Of a DNA stretch of 64,000 nt, positions 3,194 through 27,350 are shown in pieces (position 1 is the first letter of the stretch; the number at the start of each line of letters is the position of its first letter). The DNA is taken from contig DVID01000007.1 in assembly GCA_018711625.1 (NCBI GenBank), positions 1 through 64,000 of the forward strand, in the 5' to 3' direction. The DNA is from Candidatus Limicola stercorigallinarum. Lineage in GTDB: Bacteria; Actinomycetota; Coriobacteriia; Coriobacteriales; Coriobacteriaceae. Both the position numbers and the translations under genes were made by a program. Below the pieces are notes generated by a model, which ran no database searches, was not told the DNA's origin, and worked only from the letters and a program-made list of their open reading frames with translations.

Positions 3194-3664
3194 TTATTGA
3201 AGATCGATGATCTCGACCGAAAGCACCTGGCCATCGCGCACCATCAGGCGGGCAATCGTAGGCCCACGGTTACCGCGCGGATACGAAGCCGAACCCGGAT
3301 TCACCACCAGGCAACGACCAGTCTGCACGATCTTTGCGCGATGCGTGTGCCCGCATACACCCACGTTAATCATGCCCACGGGCAAATCTTCGCGGTAGTG
3401 CGCCACAGCAAACTTAAGGCCCTCATAGTCAAACAGCTTCAGCCGTTCAACGTCGGGCCCGTAATCATAGAAGTAATCGTTGTTGCCCTCAACGCCCACA
3501 ATGGACGGGCAAAGCGTGCAGAGATGGTCCCAGTCAGAAGTCGAGGTAATATCTCCCGCGTGGATAACCAAATCGGCCCCTGCGATCGCATCGAGCAAAC
3601 TATCAGACAGATGACCATGCGTATCGGAGATAACGTCGATGCGTTTGGGTGATGCAGTTTCCAC
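3194..3664 (-). CDS. YfcE/MJ0936-type metallophosphoesterase
   Basis: 156 aa, typical of the small stand-alone calcineurin-like phosphodiesterases. Metal ligands are all present: D14 and H16 in SDTHGH, D38 in HAGD, N61/D62 in GNND and the terminal GHTH box. Members cleave phosphodiesters such as bis-pNPP and cyclic nucleotides in vitro; the physiological substrate is unknown. The start is GTG at 3664 behind GAGGAAGG. It lies just upstream of the LytTR regulator (22 bp gap, same strand) but reads as an independent housekeeping gene. Confidence 0.85.
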   Translation of the reverse strand: METASPKRIDVISDTHGHLSDSLLDAIAGADLVIHAGDITSTSDWDHLCTLCPSIVGVEGNNDYFYDYGPDVERLKLFDYEGLKFAVAHYREDLPVGMINVGVCGHTHRAKIVQTGRCLVVNPGSASYPRGNRGPTIARLMVRDGQVLSVEIIDLQ

Positions 3665-3686: not shown

Positions 3687-4403
3687 TTATAGGCTCAGAG
3701 CTTTCTTGAGCGGCACAACGCGGCGGCGCGACACCGGAATGCGCTCCTCCACACCGGTCACACCCAGCTGGATAGCGCCCGAGGGCACCGTCTCAACGTC
3801 CTCCACGCACGCCAGGTTCACAATGTAGCGACGGTGCACACGGAAGAACCCAAAATCGCACAACTTTGATTCAAACTGGGCAAGCGACGTAGTGGAGAGA
3901 AAACGATCATCATCGGTGAAGATGCACGAATAGTCATCCTTCGCCATGATGTAGCGGATCTGATCAACGGGGATAAGCACCTTGCGTCCGCCCTTTTCGA
4001 CGGGGATACGCTCGATGGTGACCTTGCTCTCGGAAGCGGGCTTCACGCGGGCAAGAACCTTGTTGAGTGCCTGCTCCAGACGGTCTTCCTCGACTGGCTT
4101 GAGCAGATAGTCCACCGCGTCAACCTCAAACGCCTCGACCGCATGGTCGCTATAGGCCGTCACAAACACAATCGCGGGAGGGTTTTTAAGCTTGTGGAGT
4201 GCCTCTGCCAATTGCAAGCCCGACGCACCCGGCATCGAGATGTCCAAGAAAACCACGTCAACCCGGTTCTCCATGAGCGTCTCAATCGCTGCGCGCACAC
4301 TCGCAGCCTCGGTGATGAAACTCAGTTTGCCTGTCTGCTCAAGCAGAAAGCGCAGCTCAGAACGAGCCGGAGCCTCATCATCGACGATCATCGCACGTAG
4401 CAT
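3687..4403 (-). CDS. LytTR-family response regulator
   Basis: 238 aa. The receiver domain (1-115) has the acidic pair D8/D9, phospho-acceptor D54 (FLDISMPG), T82 and K102 (LLKPVEED). The LytTR DNA-binding domain (about 130-238) carries the typical 'IRYIMAKDDYSCIF' and 'FRVHRRYIVNL' segments. It sits 70 bp downstream of the matching histidine kinase and is surely its partner. Regulators of this type usually bind paired direct repeats and control envelope, bacteriocin or pyruvate-sensing genes. The target here is not evident. Confidence 0.9.
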   Translation of the reverse strand: MLRAMIVDDEAPARSELRFLLEQTGKLSFITEAASVRAAIETLMENRVDVVFLDISMPGASGLQLAEALHKLKNPPAIVFVTAYSDHAVEAFEVDAVDYLLKPVEEDRLEQALNKVLARVKPASESKVTIERIPVEKGGRKVLIPVDQIRYIMAKDDYSCIFTDDDRFLSTTSLAQFESKLCDFGFFRVHRRYIVNLACVEDVETVPSGAIQLGVTGVEERIPVSRRRVVPLKKALSL

Positions 4404-4473
4404 ATCCGATAAAACCCTTCCTCTGGTGCAAAAGCCCCCGCGCCCAACTTACATGCTGGGCGAGATTCTCATT

Positions 4474-5817
4474 TTACCCCTCAACGAAGATACTCTCCAA
4501 CACATCCAGATGCAATGTAACCGTTGTACCCTTGCCGGGCTGAGAATCTACCCGGGCAAAGGATTTGGGGCCATAAAAACGTTTGATGCGTGCGGAGATA
4601 TTCCCCATAGCTACGCCGGCACCACCGCCCTGTGGCAGCTTGGTGTCCACCGGCGATGCATTGGGATTGAACAGGCGGTTAGCCGTCGCCTCGTCCATGC
4701 CCACACCGTCATCGGATACCTCGATGGTAATCGCGTTGTCTTCGCACGACCGCACGCGCACCGCAATATGCAGCGGCTCCTCGTCGCGCATGGCATGCCG
4801 CACCGCGTTTTCAACGAGCGGCTGCACCACAAAGGCGGGAACCAGCATATCGGCCACGCCGTCCTCAACATCAAAGGTGGCGCGAATGCGATCCTCGCCA
4901 AAACGCGCAAGCTCAAACGTAAGGTAGCGCTTGGTCTGGGCGATCTCGCGCTCAACCGGAATGAGGGTACCGGAGTTATCAAGCGTTGAACGATAAAACG
5001 ACGAGAACTCGCGCAGCAGCTCGCGAGCGCGGGCGGGATCGGTACGCGTGAACGACGCGATGGTGTTGAGCGTATTGAACAAGAAATGCGGATTGATCTG
5101 CGCCTGCAGGGCACGCACCTCTGCGCGGGCTGTGAGCTCTTCTTGCTGCTCAAGCGCGTGAATTGCAAGCTGCGTGGACAGAAGCTCCGAGAAGCCCGCA
5201 ACCAGCGCATACTGGGTGCGATTGACCGCACGCGGGCTTGAGAAATAGAACTTGAGCGCACCCACCGTGCGGTTGCGAATCTTGAGCGGAGCCACGATGC
5301 CGGCGGGAATCTTGCGGGTGACGCCGCTCTCCCCCTTCACGCCGATCGTCTGCGTAAACGACTGGGTCATACCATGCTCGAGCACATAGTGCGTAGCCGG
5401 CGTGTGGATGGGCGAGCCCGGTGGAAAGTCATCGGCCATGTTGCCCACGCAGGCAAGCACGTTTTGACAGTCGGTGATGGCGATGCTACAGGCTCGTGTT
5501 TGGGGCAGCAGGCGCTCGCAGATCTTTTGCGCACTTTCGGCGGTAAGGCCCTCTTTGAGGTCATCAAGCATGTTGGATGCCACAAAAAGCGTCTCTTCGG
5601 TATAGCGAGACCGTAACATATCGGGATTGAGGCAGAAGAACGCGAAAATGGCAAACAGCACGCAGAGCACCGAGCATGAAACGGCGATATACACCGGCTC
5701 ATTCCCCACCACAACCAGATGAATCACATAGAGAAACAACGCTAACAGCAGTGCGCCAAATGCAAGCTGCACGCGCAGAAGCGTATCGGTTCGAGTAGAC
5801 GGCGAACGTGGGTTCAT
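4474..5817 (-). CDS. LytS/YpdA-like sensor histidine kinase (reduced membrane part)
   Basis: 447 aa. Two closely spaced membrane helices (about 17-37 and 42-62) replace the 5-6 helix 5TM-LYT module seen in LytS, and are followed by a GAF-like cytosolic sensor (about 75-220, with FVASNMLDDLKEGLT at its start). The His_kinase box QINPHFLFNTLNTI puts the phospho-histidine at H244. The HATPase part has LVENAVRHA, SDDGVGMD and a GGGAGVAMGNI lid. Its ATG overlaps the glycosyltransferase stop (ATGA), so the two are translationally coupled. With so few helices the input is probably cytosolic or carried by the GAF domain (inference). Confidence 0.88.
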   Translation of the reverse strand: MNPRSPSTRTDTLLRVQLAFGALLLALFLYVIHLVVVGNEPVYIAVSCSVLCVLFAIFAFFCLNPDMLRSRYTEETLFVASNMLDDLKEGLTAESAQKICERLLPQTRACSIAITDCQNVLACVGNMADDFPPGSPIHTPATHYVLEHGMTQSFTQTIGVKGESGVTRKIPAGIVAPLKIRNRTVGALKFYFSSPRAVNRTQYALVAGFSELLSTQLAIHALEQQEELTARAEVRALQAQINPHFLFNTLNTIASFTRTDPARARELLREFSSFYRSTLDNSGTLIPVEREIAQTKRYLTFELARFGEDRIRATFDVEDGVADMLVPAFVVQPLVENAVRHAMRDEEPLHIAVRVRSCEDNAITIEVSDDGVGMDEATANRLFNPNASPVDTKLPQGGGAGVAMGNISARIKRFYGPKSFARVDSQPGKGTTVTLHLDVLESIFVEG

Positions 5818-9344: not shown

Positions 9345-10259
9345 CTAAACTTGCTTGCCGGAATAGTCCAGCCCCTCGGTAACGAGCTCCATGGCTGCAC
9401 CCTCCATAAAGAGCTCGGCGGTATGGGCGTAGTCATCGAGCGCCCGGTCAAACACCTCGGGGAAGCTCTCGTGCGAGACCTGGCCAGTAAATGGGTTCTC
9501 CCAGGCATAGTGGTTGAGGTTTCCTGCGCGCACTGGGGCCGTGCGCGTCACACGATGCGCCAGCGCGCCCAAAAGCGAGTGCCCACGCGCCATGCCCTCA
9601 AAGATTCCGATGGCGGCAGATACCGGAGAGCCCGCTGGCTCGATGAGGCGATAAGCCAGCTTCATATCGGCCACGGCGCCACCGTACTCGTTGGCACCCA
9701 CATCAAGCCCATACACACTCAGCGCCATGTAGCTCGTCAGAGCTCCCGCCACCTTGTTGACGCGTTCGGTGGTAACCAGCTCGCTCTCGGGCGGATAATC
9801 GGCCACGGTAGCGCCGTTGCGTTTGCGCTGCAGCATGAGCACGTCCAGGTCAGACTCGATGATGGCATGCACCTCGTCGCCTGCCTCGGCAAGCGTTGTA
9901 TCTGCCTCCTGCACACCCCACTGCTGTGCATACACATACGGATGCGCATTGCGGTCGAGCACATAGTGCGAGAGCAGGCCCAACACAAAGGCGCGCCCTA
10001 CCCCTGCGTCGTGCTGGTTAAGATGCTCCACGCCTGAGCGCAGAGCTGCCAGCTGCTCGGGGATGCGCTCGCTGTGCATGCGGTGCCCCAAGCTCATGCA
10101 ACTCTTGAGGTTAGGGGTGCGCACGCGGAAGAAGAAGGGATCGGGGCCCTGGTTGGCAATAAGAAAGGCACACCGCTCGTCTTCGGTGGAAATGATGCCC
10201 TGCGGCAGGCGGCACATGCTTTCCTCACCAAAGAGGTGATGGGTGATCAAAGCAGGCAT
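9345..10259 (-). CDS. Zinc-dependent phospholipase C-like protein
   Basis: 304 aa, cytosolic (no signal peptide). The zinc-site pattern of the P1-nuclease/PLC fold is complete and in order: ITHHLFGEE (His7/His8), NQGPDPFFF, LLSHYVLDRNAHPY and DEVHAIIESDLD (His and Glu). The ATG at 10259 has AAAGGAG upstream. Family members in Firmicutes and Coriobacteria are mostly uncharacterised; a secreted toxin role is unlikely without an export signal. It is monocistronic. Confidence 0.85.
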   Translation of the reverse strand: MPALITHHLFGEESMCRLPQGIISTEDERCAFLIANQGPDPFFFRVRTPNLKSCMSLGHRMHSERIPEQLAALRSGVEHLNQHDAGVGRAFVLGLLSHYVLDRNAHPYVYAQQWGVQEADTTLAEAGDEVHAIIESDLDVLMLQRKRNGATVADYPPESELVTTERVNKVAGALTSYMALSVYGLDVGANEYGGAVADMKLAYRLIEPAGSPVSAAIGIFEGMARGHSLLGALAHRVTRTAPVRAGNLNHYAWENPFTGQVSHESFPEVFDRALDDYAHTAELFMEGAAMELVTEGLDYSGKQV

Positions 10260-10572
10260 GAGGCTCCTTTCGTAAGGGAGTTGGCGGCGGGCCGAACCCC
10301 CGGGAGATGCACACGGCGCCGCGTCGCTTACGCGAGGCAGCCCACGTCCATCCCATTATTCCCCAAAGGTGCCCTACGACAATCCCAGGCGCTCACGAAC
10401 GGCGGCCGTGCGACGGCGCGCAGGGCGAAACAGTTTTGAGGGGCCGCAGGCGGCACGCTTTTGAACGGCAAGCGGATGCAACCATGCACGTAGCTGAGAT
10501 ACCGCCGCCAACTGCGCAATATCGAGTAGTATTGATGTGTGGCAATTCCCAAGCAGCGAGGAGGCGGTCAGG
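10260..10572. other. Divergent intergenic region, no gene recognised
   Basis: About 310 bp between the minus-strand phospholipase gene and the plus-strand peptidase gene. I see no tRNA, convincing promoter pair, or long palindrome. Confidence 0.4.
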
Positions 10573-11925
10573 GTGGTACGTGATTCAAACGGTAACCGCA
10601 CAGGCATGCCACGTCGTGATTCCCAGCCCACGCCGGAGCGCAACACGGCTGGCGCCCCTCCGTCAAGCCGCTCTTCTTATGCCTCAAGCGATGCTGTACC
10701 CCGCTCCCGTTCGCCGCGTCTGGCCTCCTTCCGTGCGCCCCGTACCTCTGAGGCACCCTCAGGCCGACAAACCGCATCCTCAGGGCGAGGCGATGCCGGC
10801 AGGAACGCAGCGCGCGCGGCTGGCAGACCTGGCAGGCCCGGCCGCACTGGCTCATCGGCAGGTTTAGTGCCCTCCCCTGCTGCGACGCCCCGGCAACGCA
10901 GCCGCAGCAATCCACCCGCTTCCGCCGCCCCCTCACGCGACGGTAGACGGGACCAACGCGGTGCTGAACGCTCTCCGCGCAACGATGACGCGCGTGCCCA
11001 GCGGGGCTCACGCAATCGCCCACAGAATCCCTCCTATCTCAGAGGCAACCGACCCGGACAGCCTGGGGCCAGCGGACGCGCGCCCCGTCGCGGACGCGGG
11101 CCAGCCCGGAGGCCCCAGGGTATTTTCCTCCCCTTGAATGGCCCGCGCACGCGCGACAATCGCCAAATATATCTCTCGCATCCGCAGCGCGGCGGCAGAA
11201 GGCCATATCAAAATCGGGGGTTCTACCTCACGCAGTCCCGCCAATCGTTCAGTAGCTTCTTCAGGGGCGAAATCCTCGTTCGCGCTTTCTTATGCTTTGT
11301 GGTGGTGGGACTGCTTTCTGCCTTTATCTCGGTACCTTCTGCCGGCATAACATCCGAGCAGGAGCAGCTTCTCTTTGATATGAAAGAGCTTGATAGCACG
11401 TCGCTTATGGTTTCTACGCCGCGCTCTGCGTGGAAGCAGGGCAGTATGCCCTATCTCTACCAAACCGATCCTTTGTGGAGCACCAAACCCTACGGCGGAG
11501 ACACCGTGCGCGTTAACGGCTGCGGTCCCACCTGCCTTTCAATGGTCTACATTTACCTCACGGGCGACACCTCGCTGGATCCCGGGCAGATGAGCGCCTA
11601 TGCCGACCAGGGCAACTACGCCCCCACCGGCGCTACCGAGTGGAGCTTCATGACGCGCGGTGCTTCGGGTTTAGGCATTGCCGGACGCGCCATCTCGCCT
11701 GATGTGGCGACGATAACCACGGCGCTTGAGGCGGGCACACCGGTGATCTGCGCCATGCGCCCCGGCGATTTCACCACTGTTGGCCATTACATTGTGCTGG
11801 CCGGCATCGATGACCGCGGCATGGTTGAGGTGCACGACCCCAACAGCCAGCTCCGCAGCGCCCAAGGCTGGCGCCTCGACTGGGTGCTGCGCCAGGTGAG
11901 CAACAGCTGGGCGTTCACGGTGTAG
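10573..11925 (+). CDS. Membrane-anchored C39-like peptidase with long basic N-terminal tail
   Basis: 450 aa from GTG 10573, chosen because AGGAGG sits 8 bp before it. Residues 1-230 are low-complexity and rich in Arg, Pro, Ser and Gly; one membrane helix follows (about 236-256, FLCFVVVGLLSAFISV). The outside part is a Peptidase_C39_2 domain: Cys317 in NGCGPTCLSM, His in GHYIVLAG and Asp in HDPNS form the papain-like triad. Topology is predicted N-in, with about 230 basic residues in the cytosol. Substrate and partner are unknown. It is convergent with the giant surface protein; the 12107-12279 palindrome may separate the transcripts. Confidence 0.8.
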   Translation: MVRDSNGNRTGMPRRDSQPTPERNTAGAPPSSRSSYASSDAVPRSRSPRLASFRAPRTSEAPSGRQTASSGRGDAGRNAARAAGRPGRPGRTGSSAGLVPSPAATPRQRSRSNPPASAAPSRDGRRDQRGAERSPRNDDARAQRGSRNRPQNPSYLRGNRPGQPGASGRAPRRGRGPARRPQGIFLPLNGPRTRDNRQIYLSHPQRGGRRPYQNRGFYLTQSRQSFSSFFRGEILVRAFLCFVVVGLLSAFISVPSAGITSEQEQLLFDMKELDSTSLMVSTPRSAWKQGSMPYLYQTDPLWSTKPYGGDTVRVNGCGPTCLSMVYIYLTGDTSLDPGQMSAYADQGNYAPTGATEWSFMTRGASGLGIAGRAISPDVATITTALEAGTPVICAMRPGDFTTVGHYIVLAGIDDRGMVEVHDPNSQLRSAQGWRLDWVLRQVSNSWAFTV

Positions 11926-12490: not shown

Positions 12491-15400
12491 TTACTTTGTT
12501 GCCACGTTGTCCCACCAGTTGAGCACCATGGCGGCAACTTCAGCACGCGAGGCCATCGACGTGGGTCGGAGCAGGTTCTCGGGCTGGAAGCCGTTGATGA
12601 TGCCCTGCTCAACCGCCCAGCGCATACCCTCTTCAGCAAATGCGCTCACCCGGCTGGCGTCCGCATACGCGTCGATGCGCGTGCCGGAGGTGTCCTGATC
12701 GCCTGAGATACGCAGGAGCATCACCGCCAGCTGCTCGCGGCTGATGGGATCGAGCGGCCCGTAATAGGTGCCGTCGCCATAGCCCTCGACGGCGCCTTCC
12801 GCCTCGCACCAGGCGAGCGCCTCAGCGTAGTAGGCGTTCTGGTCAACGTCCGCGAAGGTGGCGACCACCCCCTCATCCACGGAGGGACGCCCGCAGATGT
12901 TGTAGACAACAGCCGCCATCATGGCACGGTTGACCTGGTCGTCGGGACCAAAGGTCACGCCATCCGCGTACCCGGACATAAAGCCCAGAGCAGTTATGCG
13001 GTCGACGGTCGAATCGTACCAAGCGCCTTCAGCAACATCCGCAAACGGCGTGTGGGGCGTGGGCTCGCGATAGGTGACCGTCACGGTCGCCTCGTCCGCA
13101 GGCATCTCGAACCAGTACGCGTTCACGCCGCTGTAGTGCACGTGCACGGTCTTGCCCTGCGCATCCGTGACGATGATGCGGTCGACCACGCCGCCCTCGG
13201 CAGGCTTTGTGGAAATGGTCACCGTGTCGCCCTTGGCAGCATAGCGGTCGCTCACCTCGGCCGTGCCGCCCTGGGCAGGCTCGACGGTGACCGTGGGCCG
13301 CCTCGTCGGCGGATCGGGCGTGGGATCGGGGTTTGGATCGGGGCTGGGCTCTGATCCGCCCTGGTCAGCCCATGTCATCACGAAGGGGCTGAACCCGGCC
13401 CGATCCACCTGGAAGCTCACGTAGCCGTCGGCGGCATGCGTCGTGTCGAGCTGCATCTCCTCCACCTTGCACGCGTTGATCTGGTTCTGCAGGTCGTCGG
13501 CGTCCACGCCGTACTCGCGGTGCAGGTCCTTGAAATGCAGCACCTTGATGCTGGCGGGATCCGCGCCCTCAGGCACCTTCCAGTAGACCGTCGCGCCGGC
13601 AGAGGAGCTGACCCACAGGTTGGACTGCGCCGCATCCACCAGGTCGAGGTACTGGAAGTCGGCGTTGTCGCCGATCTCGAAGCCGAAATTGGCGGCGCGG
13701 TCCTTCAGCGCCTGCAGACGGTCGACACCATCCGATTCCGCTGCGCTTAGCAGCTCGTCGGAGAATAGGCGGACACCGGAAAGGTCGCCGCCGGTCAGCT
13801 CGGCGGCTTCGCGGTCGTTCACGTAGATCTTCGTGCCCGCCGGAAGCTGCGCCGCAACGCCGCCCTTCGCCGCTGCCACGGCGTCGGCGATGCTGCTGGC
13901 ATCCGCGTCGGAGCCGAGCAGCTCCACGCCGAGCGCACCGGATTCGGCGTCCGTGGCGTCCGACACGCTGCGGACGGTGAGCGTCGACGGCTCAAGCGCG
14001 AAGCGGTAGTCCGCGTCGCCCACGTTCACGTTGACGGAATCCCCGGCGGAGGCATCCGCCGCGAACGTGGTTGTCCCCGCGCTCTCGATTACGATACGCG
14101 CCGTGTAGACACCCGGCTTTCTGTCGTCGGAGATCTCCTTGCCATCGGCGTCGAAGTAGGCGACGCGCGCGACCTCGCCCTCGTCCAGCAGCGCGTTGAG
14201 CTGCTCGAGCGTGTAGACGTTGCCCTGCCCGTCGACCACGCGGGCGTCCGGGAAGTGGCTCTGGTCGCCGGCCTCGCCGCCCGCGTACTTCACGAGCTCC
14301 GCCGGGCGCAGCGTCAGGCAGGTGATGTCGAAGGTGTAAGCGGCGTTTTCGCCTTCAGCGAGCTTCCACGCATGCGCCTCCTCGTCGAGCACGAGCGAGA
14401 AGCTGCGCGCACCCGTCTCGTCCTTGCTCGCGAAATAGTGCGTACCGTAGGCGAAATCGTCCATCGCCGCATAGGCGTCGAGATACTTCCGCGCATCGAG
14501 TGTCACCTTGACCGTCCACATGCCGTCGGTACCCCGTTGGGGCTGCCCGATCGCGAAACTGCCGGCGAGGAGCGCCTGCGCGTTGTCGCCTGACGCCGCG
14601 AACGTGACATCAGGATGCGTGCCGCCCGCATCGGCACTGTTGAGGTCGTTCACGTCGCCGAGCGTGACCGAGATGCCCGCGAGCCCCGCAACATAGTCGC
14701 CCGTGGGGGCCGCCGGCGTCATCACGCCGGGCGCCACACTCCACTGCGCCGTCGCTGTCACGTTCTCCTTGACCGCCGTCAGCGCCGTGAGCTTCTTGCC
14801 GCCCGCCAGCTGCCAGCCGAGGAACTCGTGGTCCTCCCATTCGACGGCGGGCAGACCGCCCCAGCTGTTCAGACACTGGCCTTTCGGCAGCAGCACCTGG
14901 GCCGCACCCTTCGTGAACGTGGCGCCCTCGGTCTCGTCCGCGCCGTCCACGCCGTCGTTGTCGTCGAAACTCACCTGCACGATAGTCGCACTGGCAAGGT
15001 CGCTGTCCTCGTGGTTGACGTCACCCGCGCCCCATGCGTAGTACGTGCCCGGCTTGCTCACCTCGAAGCTCGCATCCTCCGCCTTGACGGCATCGGACTT
15101 GTTGTCGCTTTTGCTCCAATAGTATTTGTCGGCATTCCCGTTCTGCAGGAGGACCTTGATTCTGCCGGGCACATCTCCCTCGGTGTAGCGCACGTCGGGC
15201 GTCGCGGACTTCGCTTTAGCGATCTTCACGCCGCCCTCGAACGTCTGGGAGAACGCCGCGTAGGTGCCGTCCTTAGCGCGCGTCACGCGTACATCGTAGG
15301 AGCCGGCGTTCACCGGTGGCTCGGTTGTCCAGGCATCCTTGTCGGTCGAGGTGGCCAGACGGTACTCCATCGTGAAGCCCTCAAGTTCGGCCGGGGTCGT

Positions 15401-18400
15401 GGTGAACGCGAAGGACTTGCCGGACCCGTCGTAGACATAGGACGTGTTGTCCTCGTCGGGCGTGACGGTTATCCCCGGTCTCGCCACCCATTTGCCATAG
15501 AGCGTCGTGTCTTCGTTGATGGCGCTGTCGTCGTAGGCGTTTTCGCAATCCTCGTCGGTGAACCAGCCGACGAACTCGTAGCCCTCGGGCGCCTTCGGCT
15601 CCGGGAGTTTGTTACCCAGCGTGCCGCCGGCGGGAACCGTCACCGGCTCCGAATCATCCGTGCCCTCGGGCGCGTCAACGTAGGCGAAGCTCACCTGCAC
15701 GGTTTCGCATGCCACCTGGTACTCGATGGTGCTCGTCGAGCCCGCGTCGAGCGACCACGTGCCCGCCGCCTCGTCGTACACCAGCGTCACGGTCTTGTCG
15801 GCCTGCTCGCCCTTGGCAAGCACGTGCTCGACGTCGCCTGCCTGCTCGCTCTCGTTGTACGCGGCCACGTACGGCGCGGCATGCACGGTCACGTTTACCT
15901 TCCAGATCTTCGCCGGCTCGGTGAGCCCCACGAAGTCGGTGAGCATCTGCACCGGGTTGGAGGCCGGCGCGTCCACGCGGTAGGTGGAGCTGACGGTGTA
16001 GGAATCCTGCTGCCCCTCGGTGTTGGCAAGCAGATCGGACGTCAGGTCACCGTGACCGACGTTGCTCGTGTCGGCCAGCTTGACATCGATCAGGCCGACA
16101 AGCACATCATATTCCGGCGCCGCGATGACCTCTTCAAGCGAGATGCCCTTGCTCGCCGTGACGCCCGTAGGCTGGCCGTCCTTCATGAGCGTCGCCGTCA
16201 GCGTGAGCGTAGACGCGTCGTTGCTGGTGCGCTCGAGCAGCGCGCGCAGCTGGTTGCCCGATGTGGGCGCGACCTTCGCGGCGGCGCCATCGGAAAGCGA
16301 CCACGCGACCGTGTAGCCCTCCGGCAGCGCAGTCAAGTTGATGTCGCCCATGCCCAGCTTCAGCTCGTACGTCTGCCCCTCGGCGGAATCGGCGCTGAAG
16401 ATCTCGCTGCCCTCAAGCGCGGGCTCGACCGCGTAGAACGTCATCGTCTCCGTGGCGCCCGTGGAAACATGTGTCACCGTGATGGTCACCCGGCCGGGCT
16501 TCTTGAAGGTCACTTCGCCTTCGCCATCGACCGTCGCCACACCCGCGTCGCTGGACTGCCAGGTGATGAGCTTGGTCGCATCGCCGTCAACCGTGGCGGT
16601 CATCTTCACCGTGGGCCACGTGCCCTCGCCGTCAGCCGCGACAACAGGCCCCATATTGGCGGAAAGCTTCAGATTCGCCCGCGGATTGGCGAGCATCGTG
16701 TAGCCGCTGTAGGCGTATAGCCCGTCGGTGGCGCCGTCAACGTAGCCGGCAAGCGCGCTGCCAGGCGCCGCATGGTACTTGGCGTACGCGTACGCGGTCT
16801 GGTCGGCGGAAAGCTGCGCCGTTGCAGAAAGCGTGTCGCCGCTCACCTGCGTGGTCAGACCGCCCTGGCTGTTGGCAGCCATGCCCTGCATGGACGTGAT
16901 CTGCTGCCCCACCTGGAAGATGGTGCCGTCCTGGTTCTCTCCCAGGCCTGTCGCCGTGGCCGTGAGCGGCCAGCCGTCGGTTGTGGCGGCGTCGGCGACA
17001 AGGTCGAGGCTCAAGCCGCTTCCGAGCTTCGCGAGGGCGTCGCTTGAGATATGCAGCTCGGAGCCCAAACGGAACACTTTGCCGCTTGTTCCCGCCGTGA
17101 ACGAATCGGCGTTCTTCACGTAGAGGTTGGCGCCCTCACCCATCCAGATGGGGTAATCGACGCTGCTCCCGTTGAACGCGCCCCCGTTGATGACGAGGTC
17201 CTCATTCGACGTGACCTTGGTGAAGGTGCCACCGTCGATCTGAAGCTGGCAGGACAGGTTCACCGAGCTGTTGCCGCCGTAAATCGTGTTGTAGGTGCCG
17301 CCGTTGAGGTAAACGTGGTCGTTCTCGCTTGAGCTGGCCTCATGCTGCACGACCGAATCGCGCAGGCCGGAGATGGTGCCCGTGGTGTTGAGGTACACCG
17401 TGCGCTCGCCCGTCGCCGTGCTGTTGTCGGGGTTGCCCACGATGATGGCGTGGCCGCGCCAGCCCTCGTCTTTGAAGCCGTCCGTGGAGCCGTCATCGCG
17501 GTTCACGAGCACCGACGTGTTGCCGTTCGCGATGAGCGTGCCATCCTCCACGCGGACCATGTTCATGGGCGTCGTGTTGCCGCCAATGGGCTTCTTCTGC
17601 CACGCCTGCAGCTTCACGTCCTCCAGAACGAGCGTTGCGCCGTTGGTGACGATGAACCCGCAGAGGCGCAGGTCGGCAAAGCCCTGGGAGCCTGCCGCAG
17701 CCTTGATGACCACGTTGTGGTCGACGGTGTAGTACTGGCCATCGAGCGTGTTGCCGAGGAATCCGCCATACTCGCCAATGGCAGTAGACCAATCGCCGGG
17801 GAAGATGATCGTGCCCACGTTCGGATTGGCGATAGCCTCCTTGAAGGCTGCCCTGCGCTGAGCCTCGTCGTCATCCTGGCCGTCGTAGTAGATGCCCGTC
17901 GAGAGGTCGACGGTTTCCTTGCCGTTGATGTCCTGGTACACCACGATGAGCTGTTCAAGCTGCTCCAGTTTGGCGAGGTTGCTCACCTGCGCCCGTTCTT
18001 CCTCGGTCAGCGCATCGTAAGCGGCGCGCGCCTCCTCCACCGCCGGCCTGGCCGCATCGGCCGCTTCGCGGCTGTTGACGGTCTCGGGCGCAGGCAGCGC
18101 GTCGATCATCTGCATGACCTTTTCGGCGGCCGTCAGGTTGTCGTCCTTCTTGATGGCGAAGCTGTCGTAGAGCGTGCCCGTGCCGCTCGCCGCGTCGTAG
18201 GTGTACGCGCGCCAGAACAGCGTGTCGTCCTCGATGGAAAGCGTCGAGTAGATGGGCTGGTAGGGCTGGCCCGACTTTGCCGTGGGCAGGTCGTTCTCCA
18301 CGATGTCGTAGAACTTGGTGCCCGAGGTGGAGGGGATCACGAACGTCGTGCCCGCAGGATTCACCTGCGCCTCGTAGGCGTTGCCCGCAGAGTCGGTCAC

Positions 18401-21400
18401 CTGCTGCGTGGTCACGCTCGCCTCGGTGCCATTGGTGAGCGACGGCGTGCGCATATAGGTGTGGTCGTGGCCCGAGAGCACAAGGTCGATGTCGTGCTGC
18501 GTGGCGAATGTGCTCAGCCACGAGCGCAACGCCACCACGTCGGAGTCGTTCTGGTGCGAGCCCTTCGAGTAGGGCGCCTTGTGCGTGACGAGGATCTTCC
18601 ACGTGGTGTCTGCGGAATCGGCAACTTCGGCCGCCCACTGCTTCTGCGCCTCGCCCACGGCGGCATCGCCGTCGTTGGTGTTCAGCACGATGTAGGTGAC
18701 GTCGCCGTAAACGAAGGAGTAGTACAGGCCCGTGGAGGTGTCCTGATTGGGGATGTCCACGTTGTAGTGCGCGGCGATGGCATTGGCGAGCTGGTTGTCG
18801 TCCTGGCGCGCCTCGTGGTTGCCCGCCACCGGCATGGTGGCCACAGCCTCGGAGGCATCGGTGTTCATGAGCCAACTCCAGTAGTTCTCGTTCACGCCGT
18901 CGTCCACCATGTCGCCCAGATGCAGGGCGAACGCTTCCCCGTCCGTCTGCTCTTCCGCCTTGGCGAGCACCGCCTCGTACGCCTCGTAGTCCGCCTCGGA
19001 AGCGCCCTGCGAATCGGCCACGACGAGCGCCGTGTAGCCGTCGGCGGGATTGTCCTCGCCGTCCACGTACACGGGATCACTCCAGTAGCCGTCATCGGAC
19101 GAGCCCACGCGGTAGTAGAAGTCGCCCGCCGGCACGGTGGCCGTCGCCGTGTGGCGGTTCTCCTTCACGATGTCGTAGTTGGTGATGAGCACGAGGTTGA
19201 GGGTGATCTTCGCCTTGTTGACCTCCTGCGCGGCGCCGTCGAACGATGTAACGGAGGAATCTTGCGCATCCATCTTCGCCTTCGCGTCGTCGGCGTTGCT
19301 TGCCGCGCTGGCGGGAATCACCTGCACGTCGGTGTCATCGACGTCGGTGGAGGTGTACCAGCTGAACTGGCGCGACGTGGCGCTGCTCTCGGAATCGAGC
19401 GACATGCTCACCTGGTCGGGCAGCGCACCGTTTTCCACCGTGGGGTTGGGCTCGGGGTTCATCGTGGCGCCCAGCTGCACGGCCACACCGCCAACCACGT
19501 CGTCAAGCGTATCGGCATCGCCCGCAAAGCCCGTCACCATGGCCACGACGAGCCCGCCGATCTGCTGGTACACGCTGTCGGTGAGATACTGGTCCAGCAG
19601 GCCCGTCACCAGGCCGCCGTCGCCGAACAGGTCAAGGCCGAACTTGTCGAGCACCGTGGCGATGGAGGGGTTGTCGCTGCCAAGCAGCGCCTGCACGGCG
19701 GTGTGCCACAGCGTGTTGCGCCCGAAAAGGTTGTCTACGCTGATGGTGGTGTTGCCCAGCACATCTTCGATAAGCGGGACGAGCGTACCGTTCAGAACGT
19801 GCGTCACCTCGTTTTTGAGGATGTCGCTGCTCTGCAGGTTCTCAAGCGCGTGCTGCATGTTCTCTGGCATCGACTCCTTGTCGGCGCCGGAGTTGTGGCG
19901 CTGGAACATGTCCTGCAGCAGCTGGCGCAGGGTGTAGCAGTTGCCCGAGGTGTCGTTCGGATTGTCCGGGTTCAACAGGTTGACATCGCCCACGCTTTCG
20001 AGCAGTTTCGAGATCTCCTGCTCGAGGCGACCGTTGGCGATGTAGTTGACCTCGATCTGATCGAGGACGCTCTGCACTTCCTCTTTGATGTCCTCGTTGC
20101 GGATCGTGAAGCTGGAAAGCAGCCCCGCCGTGCCCGACGGGTTGAGGTTCACGCCCGAGGTGTTGAATTCGCCGGTATCGTTCCACGAAATGTAGATGGA
20201 GCCGAGGCTGTCGAGGTCGACGGTCGTTCCGCCTCCCAGCAGGCCGGGCAGCGCGTCGAAGAGCGTGTCGTACAGGTCAAGCCCCGCGATGCTCTCCAGC
20301 GCCGCAGGGATGTCGGTCAGCTGGTCGAGGTAGCGCGCCGCATAGCGCATGACAAGGCGCGTGATGAAGGATTCGCCGTCTTCGTTCTTGTCGCCGTACA
20401 TGGCGTCCTTCATGTACTCCGACACGTCCACCTTGTCGGTGTTCGTGAGGATGCCGTTCGGCGCATCGAGCTTCTGGTTCATGGCCGCCTGCTTCACGCC
20501 GACGGACCGCAGGCCAAGCGTCATCTCGCCCGTGTCCTGCGTGGTGAGGCTCGCGTAGCGGTACGGCGCGGGGTAGGCGCACAGGCCGCCGGTTTCCATG
20601 TCGTAGATGGTGTTGCCCGCCGCCGTGGTATAGCTGGCGATGTCGTTCTCGTGCATGTGGCCCGAGAAGATGTAGTGAATGCCCGCGTCGGCAAGCTGCG
20701 TGGCGATGAAGCGGGAGTTGTCGGTGGAGCGCGTGCCGTCACCGTTGTCCACGTCCACGCGGTCGGTGATGAACTCGGTCTCGGCCGTGGCCTGATGCTC
20801 CAGCACGGGATGATGGATGCCCGCGACGATGTTGTAGCCCTCTTCGGTGAGCTGGGCCGCCTGATCCTTTACCCATGCAAGCAGGTCGTTGCTCATCATG
20901 CCGGCGCCCTGCCCCCATGCCTGGTCCTTGCCGTTCCAGTCGGCGGTGTACACCTCGGAGTCGATCATGATGAAAGCGACGCCCGCAGTGGTCTTGGCCA
21001 CGTAGGACAGGCCGCCCTGGCAGTCGGCGATGCCGTCTTCGCCCAGGTCTTCCACAAAGTAGTCGATGCTCTCAATAGTGCCGCTCGAAGCAGCCTTCGT
21101 GGCTTCCTCGTCAAGGCCCATCGACGCGTAGATGCTGCGGAAGTCGGCCTCGGTGGTCCAAAGGCTGCCCGCGCCGCCGTCCTTCACCTGCGTGTCGTTC
21201 TGGAAGGTCATGGCGTCGTAGTTGTAGAGGTCATGGTTGCCGGGGATCACGAGCACGGTCGTGCCCGCCTCCTGCAGGCGCTTCATCTGCGCGGCGAAGC
21301 CCTCGTGGCCCGCCTTCTCGCCCTCGCTCGTCAGGTCGCCCGTGACGAGCAGCACCTTCGGCAGTTTGCGCGCGCCGCTTTCAGCATCGGCGAGCATCTG

Positions 21401-21760
21401 GTCGACGGCAGCCGCCGTCAGCGCCCCGTTCTCTCCCATCAGGCGCAGGTCGCCGGAGGTCTGGTTCTGGTATGCCTCCGCGCGCGTGCCCTGGTACTCC
21501 GCGGGAAAGTAATGCGGGTCGCTCATGACGCCGAACAAGAAGCCATTCACCGCGCGCGTCGCCACTGTCGGCGCGCCCGCGTTCGTCTCCTCTGCCACGG
21601 CCTCCACAACCGGCACCGCCGTAACGGAGAGCAATGCCATTAAAAGCACGGTGGCGACCGCCCCCATGCGCCTGCGCAACCAGGCAAGGGCCGTGCTCAC
21701 CTTATCCGTGAGCACCCTCTCCCGGCAGCGTTTTTTCGTCTTGCCCGGCATCTCGTGCAT
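12491..21760 (-). CDS. Giant S-layer-anchored protein with two metallophosphoesterase domains
   Basis: 3089 aa, exported. A long basic N-region and hydrophobic core (about 33-53, cleavage near 'VEA-VAEE') form the signal peptide. Phosphoesterase 1 (about 72-400) has D81/H83 (SDPHY), TGD, GNHD (174-177), H316/H317 and GHMH (367-370). A purple-acid-phosphatase-like N-domain leads into phosphoesterase 2 (about 900-1160: HLGDMVDD, AGNHE, GHDH near 1095). Then come a helical FIVAR-like stretch (about 1180-1270), a beta-helix-like region (about 1280-1550), a bacterial Ig-like domain (about 1700-1775), two InlB-type repeats (about 2023-2093, 2263-2347), a Pro/Asp linker and three SLH domains (about 2905-3086) that bind cell-wall polymer. 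The ATG at 21760 follows GGAG. It probably hydrolyses extracellular phosphate esters or nucleotides, substrate unknown. Confidence 0.9.
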   Translation of the reverse strand: MHEMPGKTKKRCRERVLTDKVSTALAWLRRRMGAVATVLLMALLSVTAVPVVEAVAEETNAGAPTVATRAVNGFLFGVMSDPHYFPAEYQGTRAEAYQNQTSGDLRLMGENGALTAAAVDQMLADAESGARKLPKVLLVTGDLTSEGEKAGHEGFAAQMKRLQEAGTTVLVIPGNHDLYNYDAMTFQNDTQVKDGGAGSLWTTEADFRSIYASMGLDEEATKAASSGTIESIDYFVEDLGEDGIADCQGGLSYVAKTTAGVAFIMIDSEVYTADWNGKDQAWGQGAGMMSNDLLAWVKDQAAQLTEEGYNIVAGIHHPVLEHQATAETEFITDRVDVDNGDGTRSTDNSRFIATQLADAGIHYIFSGHMHENDIASYTTAAGNTIYDMETGGLCAYPAPYRYASLTTQDTGEMTLGLRSVGVKQAAMNQKLDAPNGILTNTDKVDVSEYMKDAMYGDKNEDGESFITRLVMRYAARYLDQLTDIPAALESIAGLDLYDTLFDALPGLLGGGTTVDLDSLGSIYISWNDTGEFNTSGVNLNPSGTAGLLSSFTIRNEDIKEEVQSVLDQIEVNYIANGRLEQEISKLLESVGDVNLLNPDNPNDTSGNCYTLRQLLQDMFQRHNSGADKESMPENMQHALENLQSSDILKNEVTHVLNGTLVPLIEDVLGNTTISVDNLFGRNTLWHTAVQALLGSDNPSIATVLDKFGLDLFGDGGLVTGLLDQYLTDSVYQQIGGLVVAMVTGFAGDADTLDDVVGGVAVQLGATMNPEPNPTVENGALPDQVSMSLDSESSATSRQFSWYTSTDVDDTDVQVIPASAASNADDAKAKMDAQDSSVTSFDGAAQEVNKAKITLNLVLITNYDIVKENRHTATATVPAGDFYYRVGSSDDGYWSDPVYVDGEDNPADGYTALVVADSQGASEADYEAYEAVLAKAEEQTDGEAFALHLGDMVDDGVNENYWSWLMNTDASEAVATMPVAGNHEARQDDNQLANAIAAHYNVDIPNQDTSTGLYYSFVYGDVTYIVLNTNDGDAAVGEAQKQWAAEVADSADTTWKILVTHKAPYSKGSHQNDSDVVALRSWLSTFATQHDIDLVLSGHDHTYMRTPSLTNGTEASVTTQQVTDSAGNAYEAQVNPAGTTFVIPSTSGTKFYDIVENDLPTAKSGQPYQPIYSTLSIEDDTLFWRAYTYDAASGTGTLYDSFAIKKDDNLTAAEKVMQMIDALPAPETVNSREAADAARPAVEEARAAYDALTEEERAQVSNLAKLEQLEQLIVVYQDINGKETVDLSTGIYYDGQDDDEAQRRAAFKEAIANPNVGTIIFPGDWSTAIGEYGGFLGNTLDGQYYTVDHNVVIKAAAGSQGFADLRLCGFIVTNGATLVLEDVKLQAWQKKPIGGNTTPMNMVRVEDGTLIANGNTSVLVNRDDGSTDGFKDEGWRGHAIIVGNPDNSTATGERTVYLNTTGTISGLRDSVVQHEASSSENDHVYLNGGTYNTIYGGNSSVNLSCQLQIDGGTFTKVTSNEDLVINGGAFNGSSVDYPIWMGEGANLYVKNADSFTAGTSGKVFRLGSELHISSDALAKLGSGLSLDLVADAATTDGWPLTATATGLGENQDGTIFQVGQQITSMQGMAANSQGGLTTQVSGDTLSATAQLSADQTAYAYAKYHAAPGSALAGYVDGATDGLYAYSGYTMLANPRANLKLSANMGPVVAADGEGTWPTVKMTATVDGDATKLITWQSSDAGVATVDGEGEVTFKKPGRVTITVTHVSTGATETMTFYAVEPALEGSEIFSADSAEGQTYELKLGMGDINLTALPEGYTVAWSLSDGAAAKVAPTSGNQLRALLERTSNDASTLTLTATLMKDGQPTGVTASKGISLEEVIAAPEYDVLVGLIDVKLADTSNVGHGDLTSDLLANTEGQQDSYTVSSTYRVDAPASNPVQMLTDFVGLTEPAKIWKVNVTVHAAPYVAAYNESEQAGDVEHVLAKGEQADKTVTLVYDEAAGTWSLDAGSTSTIEYQVACETVQVSFAYVDAPEGTDDSEPVTVPAGGTLGNKLPEPKAPEGYEFVGWFTDEDCENAYDDSAINEDTTLYGKWVARPGITVTPDEDNTSYVYDGSGKSFAFTTTPAELEGFTMEYRLATSTDKDAWTTEPPVNAGSYDVRVTRAKDGTYAAFSQTFEGGVKIAKAKSATPDVRYTEGDVPGRIKVLLQNGNADKYYWSKSDNKSDAVKAEDASFEVSKPGTYYAWGAGDVNHEDSDLASATIVQVSFDDNDGVDGADETEGATFTKGAAQVLLPKGQCLNSWGGLPAVEWEDHEFLGWQLAGGKKLTALTAVKENVTATAQWSVAPGVMTPAAPTGDYVAGLAGISVTLGDVNDLNSADAGGTHPDVTFAASGDNAQALLAGSFAIGQPQRGTDGMWTVKVTLDARKYLDAYAAMDDFAYGTHYFASKDETGARSFSLVLDEEAHAWKLAEGENAAYTFDITCLTLRPAELVKYAGGEAGDQSHFPDARVVDGQGNVYTLEQLNALLDEGEVARVAYFDADGKEISDDRKPGVYTARIVIESAGTTTFAADASAGDSVNVNVGDADYRFALEPSTLTVRSVSDATDAESGALGVELLGSDADASSIADAVAAAKGGVAAQLPAGTKIYVNDREAAELTGGDLSGVRLFSDELLSAAESDGVDRLQALKDRAANFGFEIGDNADFQYLDLVDAAQSNLWVSSSAGATVYWKVPEGADPASIKVLHFKDLHREYGVDADDLQNQINACKVEEMQLDTTHAADGYVSFQVDRAGFSPFVMTWADQGGSEPSPDPNPDPTPDPPTRRPTVTVEPAQGGTAEVSDRYAAKGDTVTISTKPAEGGVVDRIIVTDAQGKTVHVHYSGVNAYWFEMPADEATVTVTYREPTPHTPFADVAEGAWYDSTVDRITALGFMSGYADGVTFGPDDQVNRAMMAAVVYNICGRPSVDEGVVATFADVDQNAYYAEALAWCEAEGAVEGYGDGTYYGPLDPISREQLAVMLLRISGDQDTSGTRIDAYADASRVSAFAEEGMRWAVEQGIINGFQPENLLRPTSMASRAEVAAMVLNWWDNVATK

Positions 21761-23537: not shown

Positions 23538-27086
<3,549 letters not shown>

Positions 27087-27350
27087 ATACCCTCTCCTCT
27101 CGTGTAGGTATACAGTTCCCGGCAACGCCGTGCTGCCGGGTGATCTTTGGCGCTTGTGGTGCCGTCTGTCCGGTGGGGCAACCGGTCGGGCGATGTCGCC
27201 GGCCTGCGTACGCCGCCCCGCCCGTGAGCAAGGCAGCGCCGGAGCCCCTAGGCAGAAGACCCACATGCACGGATATTGTACCGCGTCTGATGCACACACA
27301 TACGTAAAACTGTGGGCCAGACACGTTGATTTTGACCCCGCTGGTAGACG
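27087..27350 (-). promoter_or_regulatory. PFOR upstream region with leader hairpin
   Basis: A possible -10 (TACAAT, minus strand 27275-27280) would give a leader of about 180 nt. That leader contains a CCCGGCA/TGCCGGG hairpin at 27118-27140 shortly before the ribosome-binding site. No good -35 was found. Confidence 0.35.

Follow-up and report, generated by a model that had tools for sequence, protein, structure and literature searches.

Most of the surface nucleotidases that have been studied well in Gram-positive bacteria are relatives of CpdB and UshA. YfkN, CpdB, UshA, CdnP and SntA are exported phosphoesterases, YfkN being a wall-associated, multifunctional nucleotide phosphoesterase, and enzymes of the CpdB/UshA type combine a metallophosphoesterase domain with a 5_nucleotid_C domain (PF02872). 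Purple acid phosphatases (PAPs) are defined by a DxG first motif and by the tyrosine ligand of a GDxxY motif, the tyrosine being the source of their colour. Lmo2642 of Listeria monocytogenes, a 443-residue protein with a single enzyme domain, is a cyclic nucleotide phosphodiesterase according to the title of its structure paper (as given in the reference list of PMC4334965) and has been counted among the potential surface proteins of Listeria (PMC2679221). The protein considered here is likewise predicted to be exported, but it carries two other metallophosphoesterase subfamilies, one Lmo2642-type and one PAP-like, and Pfam finds no 5_nucleotid_C domain in it up to an E-value of 1.

The gene occupies positions 12491..21760 on the minus strand of the window, by which we mean the whole 64,000-nt stretch analysed, and encodes 3089 residues from an ATG at 21760, directly preceded by ggatggagcga, to a stop at 12491, with no internal stop. 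It takes up 14.5% of the window, in agreement with the first-pass annotation, which had put it at 14% and had read the product as an SLH-anchored surface protein with two phosphoesterase domains of different subtypes and with Ig-like, InlB and beta-helix elements. Indeed, Pfam recognises two Metallophos stretches (whole-protein E 1.7e-28; PF00149 scores of 41.7 bits for domain 1 and 71 bits for domain 2, against a curated cut-off of 21.5), each with the five-block ligand signature, as well as three SLH repeats (E 1.2e-21), a Big_2 match for the Ig-like module (E 3.9e-6) and a List_Bact_rpt/Flg_new match (E 2e-8), which is what the InlB repeat turned out to be. The chain, all of whose features lie on the minus strand, opens with a putative export signal (aa 1-56, 21593..21760), read by eye as a basic n-region, the hydrophobic core MGAVATVLLMALLSV and a putative AVA/EE cleavage site. 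Domain 1 (aa 72-410, 20531..21547) is separated from the PAP-like part by a linker region (aa 411-775, 19436..20530) that belongs to no family and appears helical by sequence alone. The architecture as a whole is new, while the enzyme families are known ones.

Domain 1 was identified by Pfam, by a structure-sequence profile and by its motifs SDPHY, GDLT, GNHD, HH and GHMH, which supply the ligands D81, H83, D142, N175, H316/H317, H368 and H370. In the comparison with solved structures it matches Lmo2642 (PDB 2xmo) at 2e-22 with the single sequence, and a profile of the eight orthologs described below strengthens the match to an E-value of 3e-49. Profile positions 5-318 of 344 then align with residues 36-328 of the structure's chain, covering almost all of the domain. 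The D-x-H, GD, GNHD, HH and GHxH motifs are shared by the two proteins. The match stops at residue 328 of the 443 in Lmo2642, and the part behind its catalytic domain showed no match to the query profile, from which aa 441-775 were excluded. By profile and motifs, domain 1 is a member of the same metallophosphoesterase family as Lmo2642, with all ligands present, although here it heads a 3089-residue fibre with two enzymes. Nucleotide substrates would fit domain 1, given the phosphodiesterase activity on cyclic nucleotides ascribed to Lmo2642.

Domain 2 (aa 910-1205, 18146..19033), likewise identified by Pfam, profile and motifs (ADSQ, GDMVDDG, GNHE, THK, GHDH), has as its ligands D916-x-Q918, D950, N981, H1060, H1098 and H1100. 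Its profile matches the solved structures of plant and other PAPs at 7e-12 to 1e-8, and the likeness to these enzymes (plant 1kbp/4dhl, 6git; the diphosphonucleotide phosphatase 3zk4) includes a preceding PAP_N-like Ig domain (aa 781-896, 19073..19420), which at 22.4 bits stays below the Pfam cut-off of 30 in the window protein but scores 62.5 and 59.4 bits in the orthologs L057 and L058. The order of PAP_N followed by a metallophosphoesterase domain with GNHE, H and GHxH is thus that of a PAP. In all eight fusions, however, the first motif is DSQ instead of DxG, and the tyrosine of GDxxY is absent (GDMVD, GDFVD or GDYVD), D953 standing at its position in the window protein. These motifs make domain 2 purple-acid-phosphatase-like, not a true PAP, and because it has neither the tyrosine nor DxG we would not expect it to be purple. 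The earlier claim of full metal ligands in both domains consequently stands for domain 1 and needs qualification for domain 2, where Gln918 is found at the place at which DxH enzymes carry a histidine; this substitution does not preclude a complete site. Enzymes of the ADPRibase-Mn family regularly have DxQ, and a docking model makes the carbonyl of this Gln a ligand of metal 1 (PMC4334965). DxQ recurs in single-domain PAP-like relatives within the Coriobacteriia (AGDPQ), so that an active, dinuclear, non-purple site is to be expected. One could also speculate that one of the domains has lost catalysis and now acts as a scaffold or in binding; this would more likely be domain 2, because Q918 and D953 replace the histidine of DxH and the tyrosine of PAPs. 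We regard such a loss as very improbable: the DxQ of the single-domain relatives and of the active ADPRibase-Mn enzymes speaks against it, as does the invariance in all eight fusions of every other ligand and of the catalytic GNHE histidine (H982 in the window protein). An AlphaFold model of domain 2 built from two sequences reached a pLDDT of 38 and hence was not used for metal-site geometry.

Both enzymes are found on one chain in 8 of the 398 Coriobacteriia genomes sampled, the window's included, in three families. The fusion is more than chance, judging by the seven further proteins, which keep the window order of domain 1, linker region and domain 2. Although head identity falls to ~37%, neither domain shows any change in its ligand motifs among the eight, which argues that both sites are under selection. 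Among 396 genomes sampled from the phylum, no fusion was found outside the Coriobacteriia. The plasmid and phage collections gave single-domain matches only among the matches listed, none of which covered 80% of the query, viral contigs held no relatives, and a contig scan returned the nearest ortholog as its sole match (CALUFC010000001.1, a MAG of an uncultured Coriobacteriaceae, the family of the window genome). Within the Coriobacteriia, six relatives have Lmo2642-type matches only and others PAP-type only, their tails being mostly of the LPxTG type, and two genomes (G320, G323) have both domain types on separate contigs. PAP-type domains also occur in tandem on one chain, as in the LPxTG-type proteins L066:7727-10978 and L067:8225-11431, with two PAP_N plus PAP-like units each. 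These tandem proteins and the Lmo2642-only proteins L059-L062 share the two enzyme families and the surface-protein tails, but have one enzyme type per chain and 820-1090 residues, with SLH repeats and a List_Bact_rpt stalk not detected. A 2192-residue protein (L068:6241-12816) pairs a phosphodiester glycosidase (NAGPA) domain with a PAP-like domain, and an Lmo2642-type gene with two in-frame TAG codons (L046, G060:C3:297932-298909) has probably decayed. The anti-phage phosphoesterase DS9_1 was rejected as an identification, the NCBIfam score being 39.8 bits against a cut-off of 420, a superfamily resemblance only.

Behind the enzymes follows a putative FIVAR-like helical spacer (aa 1211-1280, 17921..18130), proposed from sequence and conserved in orthologs, and then a segment (aa 1282-1571, 17048..17917) that is probably a right-handed parallel beta-helix. 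A model of aa 1282-1700 has a pTM of 0.67, and the VIA-align list for it is led by pectin lyase (Z 18.0, rmsd 3.0, 232 aligned), with pectate lyases, phage tailspikes and the adhesins PfbA and SRRP among the other matches (Z 18 to 13). Foldseek returned nothing for the model at E<=0.001, so the beta-helix of the first-pass annotation gains support from the right-handed beta-helix proteins at the head of the VIA-align list, short of proof. The Big_2 Ig-like domain (aa 1718-1770, 16451..16609) precedes a stalk (aa ~1871-2800, 13361..16150), recognised by Pfam and ortholog comparison, within which lie one List_Bact_rpt (15491-15649) and one sub-threshold MBG-like domain (15257-15448).

The three SLH repeats at the C-terminus (12923..13048, 12725..12859 and 12533..12667) make the window protein the only one of the eight fusions with SLH, and its last 290 residues are similar to other SLH proteins encoded in its own genome, reaching 41% across 278 residues. 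All six other fusions with intact C-termini, the eighth being cut by a contig end, instead have a sortase-type end, in which a short motif (LPTTS, LVQTG, LSSTG, LAETG, LADTG or LASTG) is followed by hydrophobic residues and then by a basic tail. The genomes of the window's genus and those of G021, G014 and G009 all encode sortases, whereas SLH repeats number 36, 48 and 56 per genome in the window's genus against 0, 0 and 1 in G021, G014 and G009; the type of anchor thus agrees with the surface system that the genome already has. More generally, SLH repeats are very patchy, with dozens in some Coriobacteriaceae and zero in close relatives, even inside genus g2. SLH binding needs a pyruvylated wall polymer made by CsaB. 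The window genome has one PF04230 protein, fused to a GT2 domain; such a GT2 glycosyltransferase-polysaccharide pyruvyl transferase fusion adjoins an SLH protein at L115:2474-4753 (G000:C37, minus strand). As a marker of SLH-rich genomes the fusion was rejected, being absent from the other SLH-rich relatives. From the repeats we infer attachment to the wall through SLH, and the surface location and the two intact, conserved phosphoesterase sites proposed in the first-pass annotation find support in the sequence.

The heads fall into two classes, A (window, G021, G242) and B (G009, G014, G228, G274, G383), within which identity from domain 1 through the linker to domain 2 is 66-81% and 72-98%, respectively. 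Between classes, identity drops to ~37% for the heads; the enzyme domains reach 35-46%, linker and beta-helix 24-32%, the linker (24-31%) being among the least conserved head parts. G021 (class A) and G009 (class B) belong to one genus, and in both the gene has typA/bipA on one side and a glycine-transporter gene on the other. The proteins encoded around it are mostly 92-98% identical (one 77%), yet the enzyme domains are 35-44% identical, the last 200 stalk residues 72%. Between G021 and G014, the head is 27-44% and the stalk 72-85% identical, with 81% nucleotide identity over 2.1 kb, whereas G009 and G014 give the reverse pattern, 81-90% in the head and down to 39% in the stalk. For the window gene, nucleotide similarity to the closest ortholog falls off at 16148, the head/stalk boundary. 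As a control, PFOR was compared across the Coriobacteriaceae carriers and the congeners, in which the protein shares 87-94% identity with that of the window. (The listed start of the PFOR ORF, window 23538-27299, is too far upstream, homology suggesting MARKFKSMDG as the start; an in-frame TGA in the PFOR of G009 and G021 was dismissed as an artefact, its position being upstream of the true start.) Judged from these identities, module exchange would explain the mosaic more simply than vertical descent, and head and stalk of the surface enzyme appear to be swapped like interchangeable parts. Differential loss of two old paralogs is a possible source of the head classes, but would not account for the stalk pattern. 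The gene adjoins typA also in G014 and G242, so that both head classes are found beside typA; the typA locus of G009 and G021 (L057 and L114/L056) is a possible hot spot of allele exchange. Tentatively, the head classes could be alternative alleles of one locus, exchanged repeatedly among Coriobacteriia by recombination near the head/stalk boundary, their diversity being maintained by pressure from phages or the host or by a difference in substrates, with a separate swap from sortase tail to SLH anchor upon entry into an SLH-rich lineage; we consider this scenario, in all its parts, somewhat less likely than not.

In the window the gene does not lie beside typA. Its flanks are retained in the two congeners (74-90% nucleotide identity), which have 1.4-1.5 kb in place of the window's ~10 kb, a comparison by which the congener locus is an empty site, the gene having been gained in the window genome or lost in the congeners. 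Next to the insertion site lie a Zn-dependent phospholipase C-like protein barely over the cut-off (9345-10259) and a C39-like peptidase (10537-11925); elsewhere in the window, a small separate YfcE-like metallophosphoesterase (Metallophos_2, 3194-3664) is found near a LytTR two-component system (3687-5817). Being absent from both congeners and most relatives, the surface-protein gene is not a core phosphate-scavenging gene. In the window's genome (assembly 95% complete) we found neither a member of the PhoA family nor a further metallophosphoesterase frame longer than 297 aa, which leaves no rival of UshA, CpdB or YfkN size; among the PhoA and large metallophosphoesterase kinds, the protein may therefore be the genome's main extracellular phosphatase. 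At the carrier loci, no nucleotide-uptake genes are adjacent in a conserved way.

Taken together, we favour, at a probability of about 50%, an exported, wall-tethered phosphoesterase with two catalytic sites on one fibre, a modular analogue of a CpdB/YfkN-type surface nucleotidase. Domain 1, with its DxH site, would most likely cleave phosphodiesters such as cyclic nucleotides, and domain 2, with its DxQ site, would most likely take the phosphate off the resulting monoester or similar small molecules, so that outside the cell the pair would release phosphate together with nucleosides or some other dephosphorylated product. Extracellular nucleotides or other phosphoesters would most likely be the source; nucleotides or phospho-glycans of the host, proposed in the first-pass annotation, are candidates. 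That annotation had seen neither the departure of domain 2 from PAPs at two ligand positions nor the recurrence of the fusion in one bacterial class, nor the apparent exchangeability of anchor and head. Activity, substrate, the order of diester before monoester and the benefit to the cell are what we infer from the architecture, and caution about the substrates of both domains is warranted because relatives with one fold differ widely in this respect; PdeM, for instance, does not cleave cNMPs (PMC4320098).

That the substrates might be glycans rather than nucleotides is suggested by the rest of the chain. The beta-helix, which resembles pectate lyases, phage tailspikes, PfbA and SRRP, could bind polysaccharide while the enzymes trim glycan phosphate (phospho-mucin, phytate-like or teichoic-type), and the very long repeat stalk and the joining of a PAP-like to a NAGPA domain in the relative L068 would fit such an adhesin or glycan-directed fibre. 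A shared beta-helix fold does not reveal function, however, Pfam recognises no carbohydrate-binding family on the chain, and the relative of domain 1 is described as a nucleotide phosphodiesterase, so that we consider a glycan-directed role unlikely, if worth bearing in mind. Still less probable, in our estimate, is a role in immune modulation through the destruction, close to host cells, of nucleotides that act as extracellular signals (cyclic dinucleotides, 2',3'-cNMPs, ATP products). CdnP and SntA are wall-anchored metallophosphoesterases that act on extrabacterial c-di-AMP, as reported in PMC9958556, and selection by immunity or phages would be in keeping with two divergent head classes at a single locus, but CpdB-like proteins carry the 5_nucleotid_C domain that is missing here.

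The two-enzyme architecture is real and well conserved, and it is undescribed in the open-access literature searched, in which we found no paper on such proteins in Coriobacteria. Set beside the CpdB/UshA relatives, the two-enzyme surface phosphoesterase suggests another route, in which two phosphoesterases of different subfamilies are placed on one fibre, restricted to the Coriobacteriia among the genomes sampled. The locus also offers a clean case in which the enzymatic head and the anchoring chemistry change while both catalytic sites stay intact, and one that is testable in culturable relatives.
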